From Actinomycetota bacterium (GTDB lineage Bacteria > Actinomycetota > CADDZG01 > WHSQ01), in contig WHSV01000022.1 of assembly GCA_009379915.1 (NCBI GenBank), forward strand, positions 1 to 45,549: a stretch of DNA of 45,549 bases. Reading direction: 5' to 3'. Both the position numbers and the translations under genes were made by a program. Positions 7,733-36,400 of this stretch are shown in pieces. The notes under the pieces were generated by a model. It was given only the letters and a program-made list of their open reading frames with translations, was not told where the DNA came from and did not search any database. Within the stretch, counting starts at the first letter, position 1. Each line of letters begins with the position of its first letter.

Positions 7733-8547
7733 GTGCGAGCCTCATGCGGCCACGGGTGATGCTCCACCTCACCGAACTCGGGACCCAGAAAGCGGATGCC
7801 CAGCTCGGAGAACGAGCCCTCGACGCTCGACGAGATGAAGCGGTGCGTTCCGAGCAGCCGCTGGTCGCTGACGAGGTCCCGGTTGCGCAGCGCGGCGAAC
7901 ACGTCCGTCGCAGTTGCCTCGGCCGACGAGACGAGCACCACGCTTTCCCCCATGACGTACTGAATGACTCCCGACAGCAAAGGGTAGTGCGTGCAACCGA
8001 GGATGAGCGTGTCGACCTCCTGTTCCCTGAGTGGCGCGAGGTAGCCCCGAGCCAGTGCGATGACCTCATCCGAGGTGGTGTCGCCACGCTCGACGAACTC
8101 GACGAAGCGGGGACAGGCCCGCGACGCGAGCGTCACGTTCGCGCGCGTCTCGGCGACGGCTCGGTCGTAAGCGCCCGAATCGACGGTCGCCCGGGTTCCG
8201 ATCAGTCCTATCCGGCGGTTCCGGGTGGCGGCGACGGCAGCGTGAACGCCCGGCTCGATGACGGAGATGATCGGAAGGTCGTAGCGCTCTTTCGCCGCGT
8301 CGAGTGCGGTGGAAGCGGCCGAGTTGCACGCCACGACCAGGAGCTTCACGTCCTGGGCAACGAGCACGTCCATGATCTCGATGGCGAAGCGCCTGACCTC
8401 GTCCGCAGGGCGGGGGCCGTAGGGACAGCGCTCGACGTCGCCGAAATAGATCAGGTCCTCGTGAGGCAACAGGTCGATCACGGCGCGGGCGACGGTAAGG
8501 CCCCCCACACCGGAGTCGAACATCCCAATTGGCCTGCGGTCGGACAT
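7729..8547 (-). CDS. murI: glutamate racemase
   Basis: A 272-residue cofactor-independent racemase that makes D-glutamate for peptidoglycan. Both catalytic cysteines are present: Cys74 in VVACNSAAS and the second in LGCTHYPLL. MFDSGVGGLT (residues 9-18) and FGDVERCPYGPR bind substrate. The ATG at 8547 begins MSDRRPIGMFDSG, a normal start. It heads the murI-MBL-rph-rdgB-pdxH run on the minus strand, all joined by overlaps of 1-4 nt or a 1-nt gap, so one transcript is likely. A toxin gene ends 30 nt upstream. Confidence 0.97.
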   Translation of the reverse strand: MSDRRPIGMFDSGVGGLTVARAVIDLLPHEDLIYFGDVERCPYGPRPADEVRRFAIEIMDVLVAQDVKLLVVACNSAASTALDAAKERYDLPIISVIEPGVHAAVAATRNRRIGLIGTRATVDSGAYDRAVAETRANVTLASRACPRFVEFVERGDTTSDEVIALARGYLAPLREQEVDTLILGCTHYPLLSGVIQYVMGESVVLVSSAEATATDVFAALRNRDLVSDQRLLGTHRFISSSVEGSFSELGIRFLGPEFGEVEHHPWPHEART

Positions 8548-27053: not shown

Positions 27054-28606
27054 CCTTCCCCCCATCCGGAAGCTCGCCCTTGCCTGAGCTCCTCCTTTTG
27101 AATCTTTCCGACCGAGGTGCGCGGCAGGCCGTCCACGAACTCGATGTTGCCTGGAACCTTGAATGCTGCCAAGCGGCTTGCGCACCATTCAATGAGTTCA
27201 TCTTCCGTCACGCCCGTCTTGTTGGCGAGTACCACGTAGGCCTTGATTGCCTCGTCACGCATTGCGTCGGGAACGCCGATTGCCGCCGATTCGAAAACCG
27301 AGGGATGGGCGTTGATCGCGCTCTCGATCTCGCTCGCGGCGACGTTCTCGCCCGCACGTTTGATCATGTCCTTCGCCCGGTCGACGAAGTGGAAGTATCC
27401 GGCCCCGTCGACGCACACGTTGTCCCCTGTGTGCAACCAGCCCTCCACCACGGCCGCGCGCGTCGCCTCGTCGTCACCGAGATAGCCTGCCATGAGAGTA
27501 GCGCTCGGCTCCCCTCCGACCAGCAATTCGCCCACCTCACCGTCGTTCACGTCGGCCCCGTCCTCACCCACCACGCGGAGGCGCGCCCCCAGAGTCGGGC
27601 GTCCGATGGTCATGTTGCGCCGCTCGCCGTAGAGGGGGTTGAGCGTGGGCGGAGCGATCGTCTCCGTCATTCCGTAGAGCTGGAGCAGCGGACAGCCGAA
27701 GCGAACCTCGAACTCCTCGAGCTGAACCTCGGTCACGTTCTGGGAGAAGAGCACGGCACGCAGCTCGTTGCGAGCATCGTCTTCGCTCCGAGGTTGTGCG
27801 AGCAGCATTCGAATGGGGGCCGCGAACAAGCTCGCCAGAGTCGCATGATGCTGCGCCGCTACGGTGGCCCAGCGCGAGGCGCTGAAGCGCGCCATCACGA
27901 TGACACTCGAGCCCGTGACGAGTCCCGGCATCGTCGAGTAGTACTGCGCGTTCGCATGGAACAACGGCAGCGTGATCAGCATCCGGTCGCCGGGAGACAC
28001 ACGCAGGTGCTGAGCCACCACCTCTCCGACGTGAAGGTAGTTCGCGTGAGTCACCAAGACGCCCTTGGGGCGGCTGGTCGTTCCCGAGGTGTAGAGGACC
28101 GCGGCGACGTCGGCGGGGACCGGGTGTCGGGGGCCTATAGCGGAGGCTCGAGCGAGCTCGTCGTCGAACGACCCGGCCCCGTCGGCCGGTTCCCCGGTCA
28201 CGAGAACCGGCCGGTCGCCGACGGCCGAGCTCAGGGGGCTCAGCAGGTCGGGCTGGGTGACCGAGAGCTTCGTGGCGGCGTGTCCCACCACGTATGCCAG
28301 CTCGTTCGCCGTCAGAAGCGGGTTGGTGGGCACGATCACCGCACCGAGCCAAGCGGCTCCGAACCAGAGGTCGAAGAACTCGGGACAGTTCCAGAGATGC
28401 ACGTGCACCTTGTCACCGCGGCCGATCCCGTGACTGGCCAGCACACCGGCGGTCAGCGCCGCCCGCGTTGCCATGGCTTCGTAGGACCGGCGTTGCACGC
28501 CGCCGTCGAGGTCGTCGAACAAGAGGAACGGAGCCGAGGGCTGCTCGGAAGCACGGCGCGTCAGGATCGAGACGATGGTGTCGGCCCCCGTGCTCAGCGC
28601 GTGCAT
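27050..28606 (-). CDS. AMP-forming acyl-CoA ligase
   Basis: A 518-residue member of the AMP-binding superfamily that activates a carboxylic acid with ATP and CoA. The phosphate loop is VLYTSGTTSRPKGV; LQLYGMTETIAPPTLNP, EGWLHTGDN, FVDRAKDMIKRAGENVAASEIE and the C-terminal lysine motif PRTSVGKIQKEEL are all intact. The A5 region resembles CaiC-type (carnitine) ligases, but the substrate is not predictable. The ATG at 28606 has TAGGAGA 8 nt upstream. It is the first gene of the 11-gene operon. In the pathway it could activate the final acid; this is inference. Confidence 0.92.
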   Translation of the reverse strand: MHALSTGADTIVSILTRRASEQPSAPFLLFDDLDGGVQRRSYEAMATRAALTAGVLASHGIGRGDKVHVHLWNCPEFFDLWFGAAWLGAVIVPTNPLLTANELAYVVGHAATKLSVTQPDLLSPLSSAVGDRPVLVTGEPADGAGSFDDELARASAIGPRHPVPADVAAVLYTSGTTSRPKGVLVTHANYLHVGEVVAQHLRVSPGDRMLITLPLFHANAQYYSTMPGLVTGSSVIVMARFSASRWATVAAQHHATLASLFAAPIRMLLAQPRSEDDARNELRAVLFSQNVTEVQLEEFEVRFGCPLLQLYGMTETIAPPTLNPLYGERRNMTIGRPTLGARLRVVGEDGADVNDGEVGELLVGGEPSATLMAGYLGDDEATRAAVVEGWLHTGDNVCVDGAGYFHFVDRAKDMIKRAGENVAASEIESAINAHPSVFESAAIGVPDAMRDEAIKAYVVLANKTGVTEDELIEWCASRLAAFKVPGNIEFVDGLPRTSVGKIQKEELRQGRASGWGEG

Positions 28607-29969
28607 GAAGATAGTCTCCTATCTCGTGACCGATCCCGCCGACCTCGACATCGCACAGACCACCCAGGCAATCGCGGGCGGTGAACTGTCGCCGGCCGAG
28701 CTGACCGCCGCCTGTCTCGGGCGCATCGAGCAACTCGAGCCCACGATCCAGGCCTTCGTCACCCTCGACGGAGAGGGGGCACGGGAGCAGGCCCGTCGGT
28801 TGACCGAGGAGTTGTCCCGCTCCGGCCCCCGTTCGCCGCTGCACGGAATCCCGGTCGGAATCAAGGACCTCGTGGACGTCGAGGGGCTGCCCACAACGGC
28901 GTCGTCCCGGGTGCTCGAGGGGAACGTCGCTTCGTCCGACGCTCCGGTTGTCGCAGGGCTTCGCGCCGCCGGCGCCGTAATCCTCGGCAAGACGAACACT
29001 CAGGAGTTCGCCTACGGCGTCGTCAGTGCGCCGACCCGCAACCCTTGGGATGTGAACCGCATTCCGGGAGGATCGAGCGGAGGCACGGCCGCTGCGCTGG
29101 CCGCCGGCATGATGTTGGGTGGGATCGGCACCGACACCGCGGGGTCGATACGAATCCCGGCCTCGCTGTGCGGTATCAGCGGTCTCAAGCCGCGGCCGGA
29201 CCTGATCCCGGTCGACGGCATCATTCCGTTGGCACCGAGCCTCGATGCATGCGGCCCGATGGCGCGCACTGTGGCGGACCTACGCGTCCTGTTCGAAACG
29301 TTAGATGGAGAACTGCGCCGGGGGCCCGATGTGCAGGGGCTGCGTCTCGCCGTGCCCGGGAACCCCGAGGTTGCCGGAGCAACCCCCGAGGCTCAAAACG
29401 CGGTCGACGCCGCGGTCGCGGTATTGGTTGATGAGGGTCTGAGCCGTTCCGATGTCGACCTCGAACCGTTCTCCGAGTGGGACCGTCCGAGATCGATGCC
29501 GCTCATGCTCGAGGCATTAGAGGTACACCGTTCGAGGGGTTGGTATCCGCAGCGCGCCGACCGCTACACCGAGGAGACGCTGGGCTCACTGCGCTTCGCC
29601 GAGCGCCTGACCGACGAGAAGGTTGAGACGACGAGGGCCCCGCTGGCCGCTCTCGTCGAGAACCTGATGGGCGTCTTCGAGGACGCCGACGTGCTCGTGC
29701 TTCCGACCACGCAGGTCACGGCCCCCACCGTGAGGGAGTCCTCCGCCCGCGACGACGGCCATCGCACTCCCGTGGTCCGCAACCTCACGCGCCTCTGCGG
29801 TCCCGTGAACGTCTGCAGACTTGCCGCCATGAGCATCCCGTGCGGCTTCGACAAGAGTGGCCTCCCCATCGGGCTCCACCTCATCGGGCAAAATGAGTCG
29901 AGTCTCCTCGCGCTCGGCGAGCTCTATCAGTTGTTGACCGATTGGCACACCAAGCGACCCAAGCTCTGA
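28605..29969 (+). CDS. amidase signature family protein
   Basis: A 454-residue amidase with the Ser-Ser-Lys triad visible: Lys in GIPVGIKDLVDV, Ser in PGGSSGGTAAALAAGMMLGG and the nucleophile Ser in GTDTAGSIRIPASLCG. It should hydrolyse a linear amide. The ATG at 28605 or the GTG at 28626 may be the start; neither has a clear ribosome site, and the conserved part starts near DIAQTTQAIAGGELSPAEL. Divergent from the ligase operon by a shared start region, it probably belongs to the same pathway, for example hydrolysing the amide left after ring opening and decarbamoylation. Confidence 0.88.
   Translation: MKIVSYLVTDPADLDIAQTTQAIAGGELSPAELTAACLGRIEQLEPTIQAFVTLDGEGAREQARRLTEELSRSGPRSPLHGIPVGIKDLVDVEGLPTTASSRVLEGNVASSDAPVVAGLRAAGAVILGKTNTQEFAYGVVSAPTRNPWDVNRIPGGSSGGTAAALAAGMMLGGIGTDTAGSIRIPASLCGISGLKPRPDLIPVDGIIPLAPSLDACGPMARTVADLRVLFETLDGELRRGPDVQGLRLAVPGNPEVAGATPEAQNAVDAAVAVLVDEGLSRSDVDLEPFSEWDRPRSMPLMLEALEVHRSRGWYPQRADRYTEETLGSLRFAERLTDEKVETTRAPLAALVENLMGVFEDADVLVLPTTQVTAPTVRESSARDDGHRTPVVRNLTRLCGPVNVCRLAAMSIPCGFDKSGLPIGLHLIGQNESSLLALGELYQLLTDWHTKRPKL
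28609..28624. promoter_or_regulatory. inverted repeat at the divergent ligase/amidase starts
   Basis: AGATAG-TCTC-CTATCT is a perfect 6-bp inverted repeat. On the minus strand it contains the ribosome site of the ligase, so folding in the mRNA could mask it; as DNA it could be an operator. The two divergent start codons overlap at 28604-28607, so the promoters must lie inside the opposing genes or the transcripts are nearly leaderless. Confidence 0.5.
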
Positions 29970-29990
29970 GTCTTCCGCGGAGCGCCCCCG

Positions 29991-30062
29991 CTAACAGCAG
30001 GGAGGTGGGCAGCAGTCGGGCGGGCAGTCGCAGGGGACGCCCTCGCTCGGCAAGTCGGTCAC
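29991..30062 (-). CDS. 23-residue peptide with six cysteines, coupled to merR
   Basis: A tiny frame from a GTG at 30062, which overlaps the merR stop (GTGA), to a TAG at 29991. GGGGAGG lies 9 nt upstream of the GTG, inside merR, an ideal ribosome site. The peptide begins MTDLPSEGV and residues 10-23 read PCDCPPDCCPPPCC: six Cys and seven Pro in 14 residues plus two Asp. It has no membrane segment. A metal-binding peptide expressed with a metal-type MerR regulator is the simplest reading. I know no family for it; being too short for normal gene calling, it may have been overlooked elsewhere. Confidence 0.65.
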   Translation of the reverse strand: MTDLPSEGVPCDCPPDCCPPPCC

Positions 30063-30478
30063 GGTCGTTCACCTCCCCTCGCGGTCATGTAGGGGCCGCA
30101 GACCCACTCCCACTCGGCCTCGCAATCGGGAGTCGGAGGAGAGTCCAGCATGCCGGTGAGATTGGATCGCAACTGGGTCAGCCTCTCGATCTCGGCATCG
30201 ATGTCGGCGATGCGGACTTTCAGCAGCTCGAGAGTGTGGCCGCACGGGCAGGTTCCGCGATCGGAGATGTCGAGCAGTTCGCGGATCTCGCGCAACCGCA
30301 GTCCGAGATCCTGGGCCCTGCGCACGAAGCCGACGCGTTCGATGGATCCCTCGTCGAACAGCCGATATCCGGCGGGACTGCGCGCCGGAGGGGGCAGCAG
30401 GCGCTCGCGTTCGTAGAAGCGGACGGTGTCGGGGGAGATCCCCGTGCGGGAGGCAAGCTGAGAGACGGTCATGTTCAT
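30059..30478 (-). CDS. MerR-family metal-type transcriptional regulator
   Basis: A 139-residue MerR protein. The N-terminal winged helix reads MTVSQLASRTGISPDTVRFYERERLLPPP, followed by YRLFDEGSIERVGFVRRAQDLGLRLREIRELL. The long dimerisation helix spans about 82-112. Cys77, Cys79, His81, Cys119 and Cys127 sit where ZntR/CadR-type proteins bind divalent metals, so Zn, Cd or Pb sensing is likely. The ATG at 30478 (or 30472) lies 7-8 nt from the predicted -10, so the message may be leaderless. A palindromic operator with a long promoter spacer lies directly upstream, suggesting autoregulation. Confidence 0.9.
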   Translation of the reverse strand: MNMTVSQLASRTGISPDTVRFYERERLLPPPARSPAGYRLFDEGSIERVGFVRRAQDLGLRLREIRELLDISDRGTCPCGHTLELLKVRIADIDAEIERLTQLRSNLTGMLDSPPTPDCEAEWEWVCGPYMTARGGERP

Positions 30479-30484
30479 GGGAGC

Positions 30485-30516
30485 ACCGTAAACCTTGGAG
30501 TCCACTCCAAGGTCAA
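30485..30516 (-). promoter_or_regulatory. MerR-type promoter/operator
   Basis: On the minus strand TTGACC (30511-30516) and TTACGG (30486-30491) are separated by 19 nt, or 20 nt if TACGGT is the -10; this over-long spacing is typical of MerR-activated promoters. Between them lies the perfect palindrome ACCTTGGAGT-N2-ACTCCAAGGT (30492-30513). It resembles Zn/Pb-type sites such as the zntA promoter. Confidence 0.8.
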
Positions 30517-30548: not shown

Positions 30549-31277
30549 ATGATCCGGATGCTCCCGACGCTCGCGCTCGCCGCCTACAACAACCTCGCCA
30601 ACCTGTGGCCCCCGTTCAACCGGCGGGCGTACGTGCCGGTCAACCTTTTCGCCACCGTGGCTCTCGCTTGGGTTGCGCTCGGGCCACTGGGGCTCGCGTT
30701 TGACGACGTGGTGGGAAGCATCGAGATCGTCGATGCCTTCGCGGGGATGGCGATGGGTGCCCTCGTCGCGGCGCCTCTTTTCGTCGGACTCAGATCGCCG
30801 AGGTGGCGCGCGCGCATCGCGGACGAGCGCACGGCTCATCTCTCGGGCGCGGCTCTCGCCTATCGGTGCCTGGTGCACGTCCCGCTGGGGACGGCGCTGC
30901 TCGAGGAGTTCGCGTTCAGGGGTGTTCTCTTCGTTGCGTGGGACGCCACCGAATCCACCTTGGCTGCGGCGATTCTCTCGAGCGCCGTCTTCGGACTGTG
31001 GCACATCGCTCCGGCGCGCAACGCGTTCTTGCTGAACCATCCCGCCTCGTCGATGGGTGCGATGTTGTGGTGGATCGCACTGACTGTGGCAGCGACGTTC
31101 GTGGCCGGTCTGATCCTGATCTGGCTAAGAGTGCTGGGTGAAGGTGTCCTCCTGCCCTTCGCGCTTCACGCGACGTTGAACTCGCTTGCGACTCTGGCGG
31201 GGGCGAGAGCTCACCCGCCCGAGCACCCTCGCCTAGCGGGTCCAGTCGACGGCGGAGACACCATCGATGCTGCTTAG
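30549..31277 (+). CDS. CPBP-family intramembrane metalloprotease
   Basis: A protein of about 242 residues with several hydrophobic helices and the CPBP (Abi/CAAX-protease-like) motifs: LLEEFAFRG (EExxxR), a second motif around FGLWHIAP and HATLNSLA near the end. It should be an integral membrane protease of unknown target. The start is uncertain: ATG 30549 or GTG 30531; neither has a strong ribosome site. It is divergent from merR and shares the spacer holding the MerR operator, so regulation by MerR is possible. The 3' end overlaps the convergent mgtC-like gene by 45 nt. Confidence 0.85.
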   Translation: MIRMLPTLALAAYNNLANLWPPFNRRAYVPVNLFATVALAWVALGPLGLAFDDVVGSIEIVDAFAGMAMGALVAAPLFVGLRSPRWRARIADERTAHLSGAALAYRCLVHVPLGTALLEEFAFRGVLFVAWDATESTLAAAILSSAVFGLWHIAPARNAFLLNHPASSMGAMLWWIALTVAATFVAGLILIWLRVLGEGVLLPFALHATLNSLATLAGARAHPPEHPRLAGPVDGGDTIDAA

Positions 31278-34599: not shown

Positions 34600-34839
34600 G
34601 GAGTGGACCCGATTTCGTCAACCGTGTCGGCCACGCGCGAGCTATTCGGCAACGCGGGAGCATCCGCCGGAGGGTCTTGGATCGCGGAGAACGCAACGAT
34701 GATGGCGATCGTGTGGCCCTTGCTGATCGTCGTGGTCACGCTGCCCCTCGCGGTTCGCCGCTATCAGAACCTCGGCCGTCGAGGAGCTAACCGGCCAGGG
34801 AGCGAGCGACCTCCAGACTCGGGCCGATTCCGATCTTGA
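34600..34839 (+). pseudogene. ABC-2 exporter permease, C-terminal remnant
   Basis: The plus-strand frame reads DPISSTVSATRELFGNAG, then a membrane helix MMAIVWPLLIVVVTLPLAV and RRYQNLG, matching the last ~60 residues of drug-type ABC-2 permeases. Nothing upstream in this frame continues the permease. The remnant begins where the opposite-strand TetR remnant ends, and its 3' end overlaps the metalloprotease gene by about 50 nt. Confidence 0.65.
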
Positions 34840-36400
34840 CCTCGCCATCCGAGCACGTGATGACCGTGTCCTGCTCGCCGCCCTCGGCAACGAGGGCGGC
34901 GCCGCCTTCGGTGCTCTCGTCGTCGTCAGAGAACGATGCCGAGTACCACTCGGTGATCGACTCGCAGAGCCCGTCCGAACCCCGTCGCTGAGCCAGGGCG
35001 ATCCCGAGCGCGCTCCTGCCCCCGTCCGTCCACAGATCGAACTCGCCGCCTCCCCAGGCGCCGGCCGAGCTCAGGGGGTCGGCAACCGCCGCCGCCGTGT
35101 CGCCACCGGGGGCCTCGAACAACCACTTGAGCTCCGCGGCGCCGAACGAGCCCGACAGCGAACTCGTCCATCCGGCACCCGGATTACCCGTGTCTCGAGG
35201 GTCGACCGGCTCGGCATTCGGGTCGTAGCGCTCGGGAAAGAGCACCTGGTCGCTCGATGCGGGAGGCTCGTCGTAGGCCTTGTCGACGGCCGGCCAACCG
35301 CCGTCGCGTTGAAGCGCACAGACGAAACCGAGGCCGTCCAGGTACGGGAACTGAAGCTGCTGCTGAATGAAATGGGGCATCGCCTCGAGATCCTCCTGCG
35401 ACTGCTGCAGCTGCGGAGAGCCGGACAGCATCGACAGCTGGTCCGTGAGACTGAGGTGCGCGAGCGACCAGCGCTGCATCGTCAAGGTCGCGTCCCCCTC
35501 GACGACCGCGAGGGTCGCGAGGTCGGAGTCGGCGGTCTCGGGATCGGATCGCTCCGGGAGCGGAAGGTCGAGCGCCTGATCGGCGAGGGCGTGCTCGAGC
35601 TCGTGCGCGAGCGTCACTTGCTCGAGCGGACCCACCTGATCTTCGGCGAGGACCACGAGCTCCTCGGTCTCCGCAACGTAGAACCCGGCCACCTGGCCCT
35701 CGAGAACCTTCTTGCGAGTGCTGAACAGATCGGTCTGACGAGGAATCGCGCCGAGCGCCTCGAGGACCCGGCCCTCGAGATCTGCATCCCGGCGAGAGTA
35801 GTCCTCCGGGAAGAGCTCGCCCACCCGCTTCTCGAGCTGCGCTTTGGTGAGGAAGTTCGCGTCGACCGGCTTGTCGTAACGAAGCTCCCGGATCTTGGAG
35901 ACCTGCTTCGAGATCGAACCGACCAGCTTGCGGGGGCTCTGCTGCTTGGTGGGCGAGCCACCGCCGAACAGGTCTTCGAGTCCCTCGCCCCCGCCTCCGA
36001 ACAGATCACCGAGACCTCCTCCCCCGCTTCCCGAAGTGAGGCACTCCAGCAGGTCGGAGTTCGAGCCTCCCAGAAGGTCGCTCCCGCCACCGAGGTCGCC
36101 GAGGAGGTCGCCGAGATCGCCTTCGTCGCCACCGAGGTCGCCGAGGAGGTCGTCGAGAGGGTTCGCGGGGTCGTCCTGCTCGTTCGATTGAGCTCGTTCC
36201 TGCTCGTCGAGGCGGTCCTGGAGGTCGTTGGTGCGCCTGTAGCCCACGAAGGCAAAGGCGCTCACCGCGATCAGTGCGACCGCAAGCAGAGCCACGGCCA
36301 CCTTGACGCCGGAGCCGGCGAATCGCTTGGGGGGCTCTGGTGGTGGAGGAGGCGGTCCCGTGGATCCGGGCTCCTTCATCCAATACGGGTTTTGTCCCAT
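34787..36400 (-). CDS. membrane-anchored zinc metalloprotease-like protein
   Basis: A 537-residue protein. Residues 1-30 are proline-rich and cytoplasmic, about 33-53 form a single membrane helix (VKVAVALLAVALIAVSAFAFV), then a Gln/Glu/Arg coiled segment and a Gly-Asp-Leu-rich low-complexity region (about 75-150, units like DLLGDLGG and DLFGGG). The extracellular domain carries TLAHELEHALADQ, an HExxH zinc motif, and downstream VVEGDATLTM, a plausible third-ligand segment. Cysteines near the C-terminus (Cys about 488 and 517) could form a disulfide. Function unknown; a surface protease is the likely call. The ATG at 36400 precedes a normal N-terminus. Confidence 0.75.
   Translation of the reverse strand: MGQNPYWMKEPGSTGPPPPPPEPPKRFAGSGVKVAVALLAVALIAVSAFAFVGYRRTNDLQDRLDEQERAQSNEQDDPANPLDDLLGDLGGDEGDLGDLLGDLGGGSDLLGGSNSDLLECLTSGSGGGGLGDLFGGGGEGLEDLFGGGSPTKQQSPRKLVGSISKQVSKIRELRYDKPVDANFLTKAQLEKRVGELFPEDYSRRDADLEGRVLEALGAIPRQTDLFSTRKKVLEGQVAGFYVAETEELVVLAEDQVGPLEQVTLAHELEHALADQALDLPLPERSDPETADSDLATLAVVEGDATLTMQRWSLAHLSLTDQLSMLSGSPQLQQSQEDLEAMPHFIQQQLQFPYLDGLGFVCALQRDGGWPAVDKAYDEPPASSDQVLFPERYDPNAEPVDPRDTGNPGAGWTSSLSGSFGAAELKWLFEAPGGDTAAAVADPLSSAGAWGGGEFDLWTDGGRSALGIALAQRRGSDGLCESITEWYSASFSDDDESTEGGAALVAEGGEQDTVITCSDGEVKIGIGPSLEVARSLAG

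Follow-up and report, generated by a model that had tools for sequence, protein, structure and literature searches.

A cysteine-rich micro-peptide frame coupled to a metal-type merR gene: a proposed self-regulated metal response operon in Actinomycetota

Anatomy of the merR-peptide locus

The stretch of DNA that we analysed (the window; 45,549 nucleotides of contig WHSV01000022.1 from an Actinomycetota bacterium) holds on its minus strand a merR gene and, overlapping its end, a frame of only 23 codons, both lying between two genes of the plus strand. The features are as follows.

28575..29969, plus strand: convergent amidase gene, the boundary on one side, 21 nt from the peptide stop (gene list, Pfam, sequence)
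29991..30062, minus strand: 23-codon frame MTDLPSEGVPCDCPPDCCPPPCC, a proposed micro-metallothionein (sequence and relatives)
30059..30478, minus strand: merR, encoding a metal-type MerR regulator of 139 aa (Pfam MerR_1 and MerR-DNA-bind; PDB profile alignment to MerR and CadR)
30069..30078, minus strand: Shine-Dalgarno sequence GGGGAGGTGA of the peptide, within the final merR codons (sequence; equivalent sites in relatives)
30485..30516, minus strand: merR-type promoter/operator with -35 TTGACC (30516-30511), a 20-bp spacer and -10 TACGGT (30490-30485) (sequence; conserved in relatives)
30549..31277, plus strand: divergent CAAX/CPBP-type protease gene, the other boundary, unrelated to metal (gene list, Pfam)

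The merR-peptide unit is thus closed on both sides, and downstream of the peptide lies only the convergent amidase gene, with no gene that could be co-transcribed. Elsewhere in the window, a 537-aa protein (34787-36400, minus strand) without a Pfam match carries HELEH, a zinc-protease-like motif, in VTLAHELEHALADQ.

Three Pfam models (PF13411, PF00376, and PF09278) exceed their cut-offs in the MerR protein, which has both the N-terminal MerR HTH and the MerR DNA-binding/dimerisation helix of the family. Its cysteines are Cys77 and Cys79, which form a CPC motif, Cys119 and Cys127. In the PDB profile alignment, Cys79 matches the partner-protomer cysteine of MerR and CadR and Cys119 their first loop cysteine, so that the protein has the cysteines at 77/79 and the two loop cysteines of metal-sensing MerR regulators, Cys79 and Cys119 being placed by profile. 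Metal roles are documented for the aligned cysteines of MerR and CadR, and the partner-protomer pattern is that of sensors of divalent (+2) ions (PMC9909328). The first cysteine of CPC is kept throughout the MerR subfamily, in two loci as CAC, and Cys127, which falls outside the structural alignment, is almost invariant in it. No NCBIfam equivalog cut-off is reached, whether for CadR-PbrR, ZntR, MerR, or any other, the best being CadR-PbrR with 89.6 vs 151.45 bits; an AlphaFold model built from the single sequence was of poor quality (pLDDT 60.7) and was left unused. Taken with the promoter described below, the domains and the aligned Cys79 and Cys119 uphold the designation as a metal-type MerR regulator given in the initial annotation.

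A perfect 10+2+10 dyad (ACCTTGGAGT-GG-ACTCCAAGGT, 30513-30492) lies inside the 20-bp spacer of the merR promoter, as expected from the rule that MerR-family dyads sit within promoter spacers of 19-20 bp (PMC9909328), and merR does have a palindromic long-spacer promoter of its own, as had been proposed. The merR ATG (30478) is found 6 nt past the -10; likewise, the start codon follows the -10 by 5-8 nt in all 29 promoters found with a strict pattern, which have the 20-bp spacer too. Because of this short distance, the merR mRNA is probably leaderless. A search allowing up to 3 mismatches found the operator once in the genome, at merR, and the predicted regulon is therefore the merR-peptide operon itself, within that mismatch limit. 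Further regulon members were sought class-wide and discarded: the operator search gave essentially merR promoters only, the exceptions being a decayed merR (G013), a promoter-like site of a P-type ATPase (G019), a thioredoxin-like gene (G023), and a merR truncated where its contig ends (G018). The decayed operon copy (L104, G013:C36:13710) retains its operator before a merR with an in-frame stop. The idea of a self-contained metal operon without a transporter accordingly suits the context in the window and its genome, including the single operator, but some relatives adjoin arsenic or P-type ATPase genes, so that the transporter-free arrangement is not universal.

At its 3' end, merR reads CCG TGA (stop at 30061-30059, minus strand), and the GTG start of the peptide (30062-30060) shares GTGA with this stop in a 4-nt overlap (30062-30059); the peptide frame closes with TAG (29993-29991). 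Both the overlap and a GGGGAGG located 9 nt upstream had been read from the sequence at the outset and are found as described, the latter within GGGGAGGTGA (30078-30069), which ends 6 nt ahead of the GTG, or 9 nt when counted from GGGGAGG. A recurrent GG(E) at the C-terminus of MerR is what the peptide's strong Shine-Dalgarno sequence encodes. With 6 Cys in 23 residues, CxC and CC motifs, and coding selection, the peptide has the features by which metallothionein sequences are broadly recognised; its last 14 residues hold the six Cys first reported, but six Pro instead of seven, the seventh being at position 5. No Pfam or NCBIfam match was obtained for the peptides tested, even at E up to 1, and they fall outside the described metallothionein families of the SmtA type. 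A competing 63-aa frame in another reading frame (29881-30072) was dismissed: since its GTG belongs to the peptide's Shine-Dalgarno sequence, it lacks a separate ribosome site, and none of the loci read showed a conserved counterpart.

Occurrence and variation among relatives

The search for MerR homologues started from the window protein and continued with a profile of 16 rows; loci without the peptide are among these rows, so the profile was not selected for it. A small Cys-rich product is encoded at the merR end in 27 of the 31 Actinomycetota genomes that have a close MerR homologue, either as a separate peptide, of which there are sometimes two, or as an in-frame extension of MerR, and all ten genomes of the organism's own family with a merR of the window type have the peptide. 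The start and the ribosome site at the merR end are kept in relatives as well. The expectation that the same small frame would follow homologous merR genes is thus confirmed, except that the exact cysteine spacing is kept within clades only; given these differences between clades, a single ancestry of all the peptides does not follow. In most genomes, the product has 18-33 residues. The nearest relative by peptide (G010) encodes ...PCDCPPECCPPDCC, with all six cysteines in common with the window peptide, and a second peptide, ...TDGGCPCCGCPCGDCGGSGSR; two peptides are also found in G015 (MTDVVPCDCPCGCCPCEGC and MTETPCPCCGCPCGDCGGPGSK), and further examples were read in G002 (MADGGCPCCGCPCGDCGGSGSRHR), G062 (MACPECGCPCDECPCPTCGARKC), and G712 (MCPCCDDPTCRCECCDCC). 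The actinobacterium Haloactinopolyspora alba (DSM 45211; L024) has the small frame MSHVLDVVDVSSVASCCDDPTCSPEACDDLCC, and its merR locus is matched by that of G526. On Rhodococcus plasmids, MHDCCEDPMCPPELCGCGC follows the same kind of merR at a place where no gene is listed, the gene table of this collection being incomplete; in Mycobacteroides and Streptomyces, by contrast, plasmid-borne merR genes divergent from a P-type ATPase gene lack the peptide.

Five genomes of one other class (L064, L065, L120, L121, and L122) have a longer Cys-rich product after merR, about 60 residues in three of them, with CGCGC-type clusters and, in four of the five, a charged helix-like tail; those tested had no Pfam or NCBIfam match. 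The peptide is absent in four of the 31 genomes, two of which have neither peptide nor substitute, while the other two (L018/L059 in G020; L083 in G046, 7795-8151) have at its position a thioredoxin-like gene whose product carries CPVC and, near the C-terminus, CC, as if another thiol protein took the place of the peptide. Away from merR, G003 encodes a lone CPCCGCPCGDCGG-type peptide that has a ribosome site to itself (L092, C310, minus strand, near 405-442), and the gene before it appears glucose-6-phosphate dehydrogenase-like, by eye and from the C-terminus only.

Coding selection, proposed mechanism and rival explanations

Short frames are abundant in this GC-rich DNA; the window holds 292 that start on NTGA and encode 15-60 aa, and one may ask whether the peptide frame is simply one of them. 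Yet dinucleotide shuffling of the frame gave at least six Cys in only 2 of 9,572 stop-free sequences. On both strands of 257 kb, we found 21 small frames with at least five Cys making up at least 20% of the residues, of which 18 belong to the peptide family and three look accidental, so that about 0.001 chance Cys-rich frames are expected per gene end, against a Cys-rich product in 27 of 31 relatives. The CPCCGCPCGDCGG type is present in six genomes of the organism's own family, and over its 13 codons the pairwise codon differences are 94 synonymous vs 0 nonsynonymous, all at third positions. In a scan of 396 genomes for CPCCGCPCGDCGG, every match had 0 mismatches where up to 3 were allowed, and a reversed control pattern had no matches in the same 396 genomes; for a second peptide type, the 395 genomes scanned gave matches in two only, both at known merR loci. 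The shuffles and the conservation lead us to reject a chance frame, which we hold to be exceedingly improbable. No more credible is a cysteine-responsive attenuator whose Cys codons gauge the supply while the product is irrelevant, even though a short Cys-dense frame in a member of the Actinomycetota recalls the mycobacterial polycysteine frames, which serve as a precedent (Canestrari et al. 2020, as cited in PMC9031893). According to that citation, these frames are leaderless and lie upstream of the genes that they control, whereas the window peptide has its own ribosome site and comes last in its unit, 21 nt from the convergent amidase gene, so that there is nothing downstream to attenuate. 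In addition, codons vary at their third positions and conservation extends beyond Cys to Gly, Pro, and Asp, and a fusion to MerR would be senseless for an attenuator; we therefore discard this explanation, chiefly on position.

The reading that we favour, and regard as probable, is a self-regulated two-gene metal response operon in which metal-loaded MerR would activate merR and the peptide, and the peptide would chelate the inducer. MerR is proposed to occupy the dyad of its own promoter, within the over-long 20-bp spacer; once a soft metal or metalloid is bound at its cysteine site, it would distort and untwist the DNA and activate transcription of the merR-peptide mRNA. Translation of the peptide would be coupled to that of merR by the GTGA overlap and would use the peptide's ribosome site. 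Its six thiolates could then chelate the inducer in the cytosol, free metal would fall, and the operon would be switched off again. The sequences themselves establish how the operon is built, that its promoter, frame, and peptide are conserved, that the peptide is under coding selection, and that it has been fused to MerR more than once; metal binding, induction, and chelation are what we infer. The cysteine pattern of the sensor makes a divalent ion of the Zn/Cd/Pb/Hg type a candidate inducer, and the gene neighbourhoods of two relatives add As(III) as a possible one.

The main rival to the chelator reading has the peptide act mostly as a regulatory partner of MerR, a detachable metal-binding tail that strips metal from it or passes metal on instead of sequestering it in bulk. 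The peptide is a C-terminal in-frame tail of MerR in G007, G017, and G080, and by the MerR tree the fusion arose independently in each, with G022, the sister of G017, keeping its peptide separate. This recurrence speaks for MerR and the peptide acting together, and the fused copies make a role on MerR itself possible; moreover, tight coupling on one mRNA brings little benefit to bulk sequestration. However, an ATG and a ribosome-site-like sequence are still present at each fusion junction, so that fused and free forms may both be made, and free chelators are better fitted by the two peptides that follow one merR in several genomes and by the lone G003 peptide after the glucose-6-phosphate dehydrogenase-like gene. 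On balance, we find it unlikely that this is the peptide's principal role. Still more doubtful is an arsenic-specific metallochaperone or detoxification partner that delivers As(III) to proteins for its efflux or reduction. As(III) is a possible inducer because arsenic genes adjoin merR in two relatives: in G002, merR and the peptide are followed by a MIP channel gene and a low-molecular-weight phosphatase-type (ArsC-like) gene, and in G006 the genes on the divergent side of merR are arsR, an ArsJ-associated GAPDH gene, arsJ, and an ArsC-like gene. But arsenic genes occur at only two of ten own-family loci, none lies nearby in the window and most others, and the MerR cysteine pattern is that of divalent sensors. 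The ArsR-family protein encoded divergently from merR in G006 (L079, 3773-4081) itself ends in a peptide-like Cys tail, CECGPGRPCC.

Significance and comparison with known systems

The merR-peptide pairing is real and conserved. It is also apparently undescribed: the open-access literature searched (subscription journals lie outside this coverage) does not mention a peptide of this kind, and Pfam and NCBIfam gave no match, in line with the initial suspicion. The locus probably encodes a very small inducible metal-binding peptide of a kind that gene finders miss, since genes shorter than gene-calling length are invisible to them. We would give about even chances to the broader proposal that this is a widespread, overlooked actinobacterial class in which MerR controls only itself and a thiol peptide of 18-33 residues, among the smallest dedicated genetically encoded metallothioneins, which in the course of evolution has passed back and forth between being free and being a tail of MerR. 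If so, metal sequestration by ribosomally made micro-peptides would be a recurrent and hidden part of actinobacterial metal homeostasis, and there would be an explanation for 'orphan' MerR regulators without a transporter. At this size, the parts can be synthesised and tested directly, and the natural module of sensor and chelator, like its fused versions, could become a source of ready-made parts for metal biosensors.

The pairing of a regulator with a small Cys-rich protein is itself already known, from SmtB-smtA and from CadR-Zrd. SmtB is an ArsR-family repressor, and its system, like the bacterial metallothioneins at large (SmtA, PmtA, and MymT), resembles the present operon in joining a metal regulator to a small Cys-rich protein. 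SmtA-type proteins differ in being longer and in having a zinc-finger-like fold (PMC7387436). The closest precedent is offered by Pseudomonas aeruginosa, where CadR activates Zrd, a small, previously uncharacterised metallothionein-like protein (PMC12301328), and thus a metal sensor of the MerR family switches on the kind of protein that we propose here. Zrd has its own intergenic region and two predicted zinc-ribbon domains with mononuclear sites (PMC12301328), whereas the peptides are either coupled with the regulator or part of it by fusion, have mostly 18-33 residues, and show no recognised zinc ribbon. As for the regulator, it shares with CadR/PbrR, ZntR, and MerR the HTH and dimerisation domains, the promoter with a dyad in a 20-bp spacer, and the cysteines at 77/79 and 112/114; it is set apart by the extra cysteine of CPC and by its target, the only one found being its own two-gene operon.
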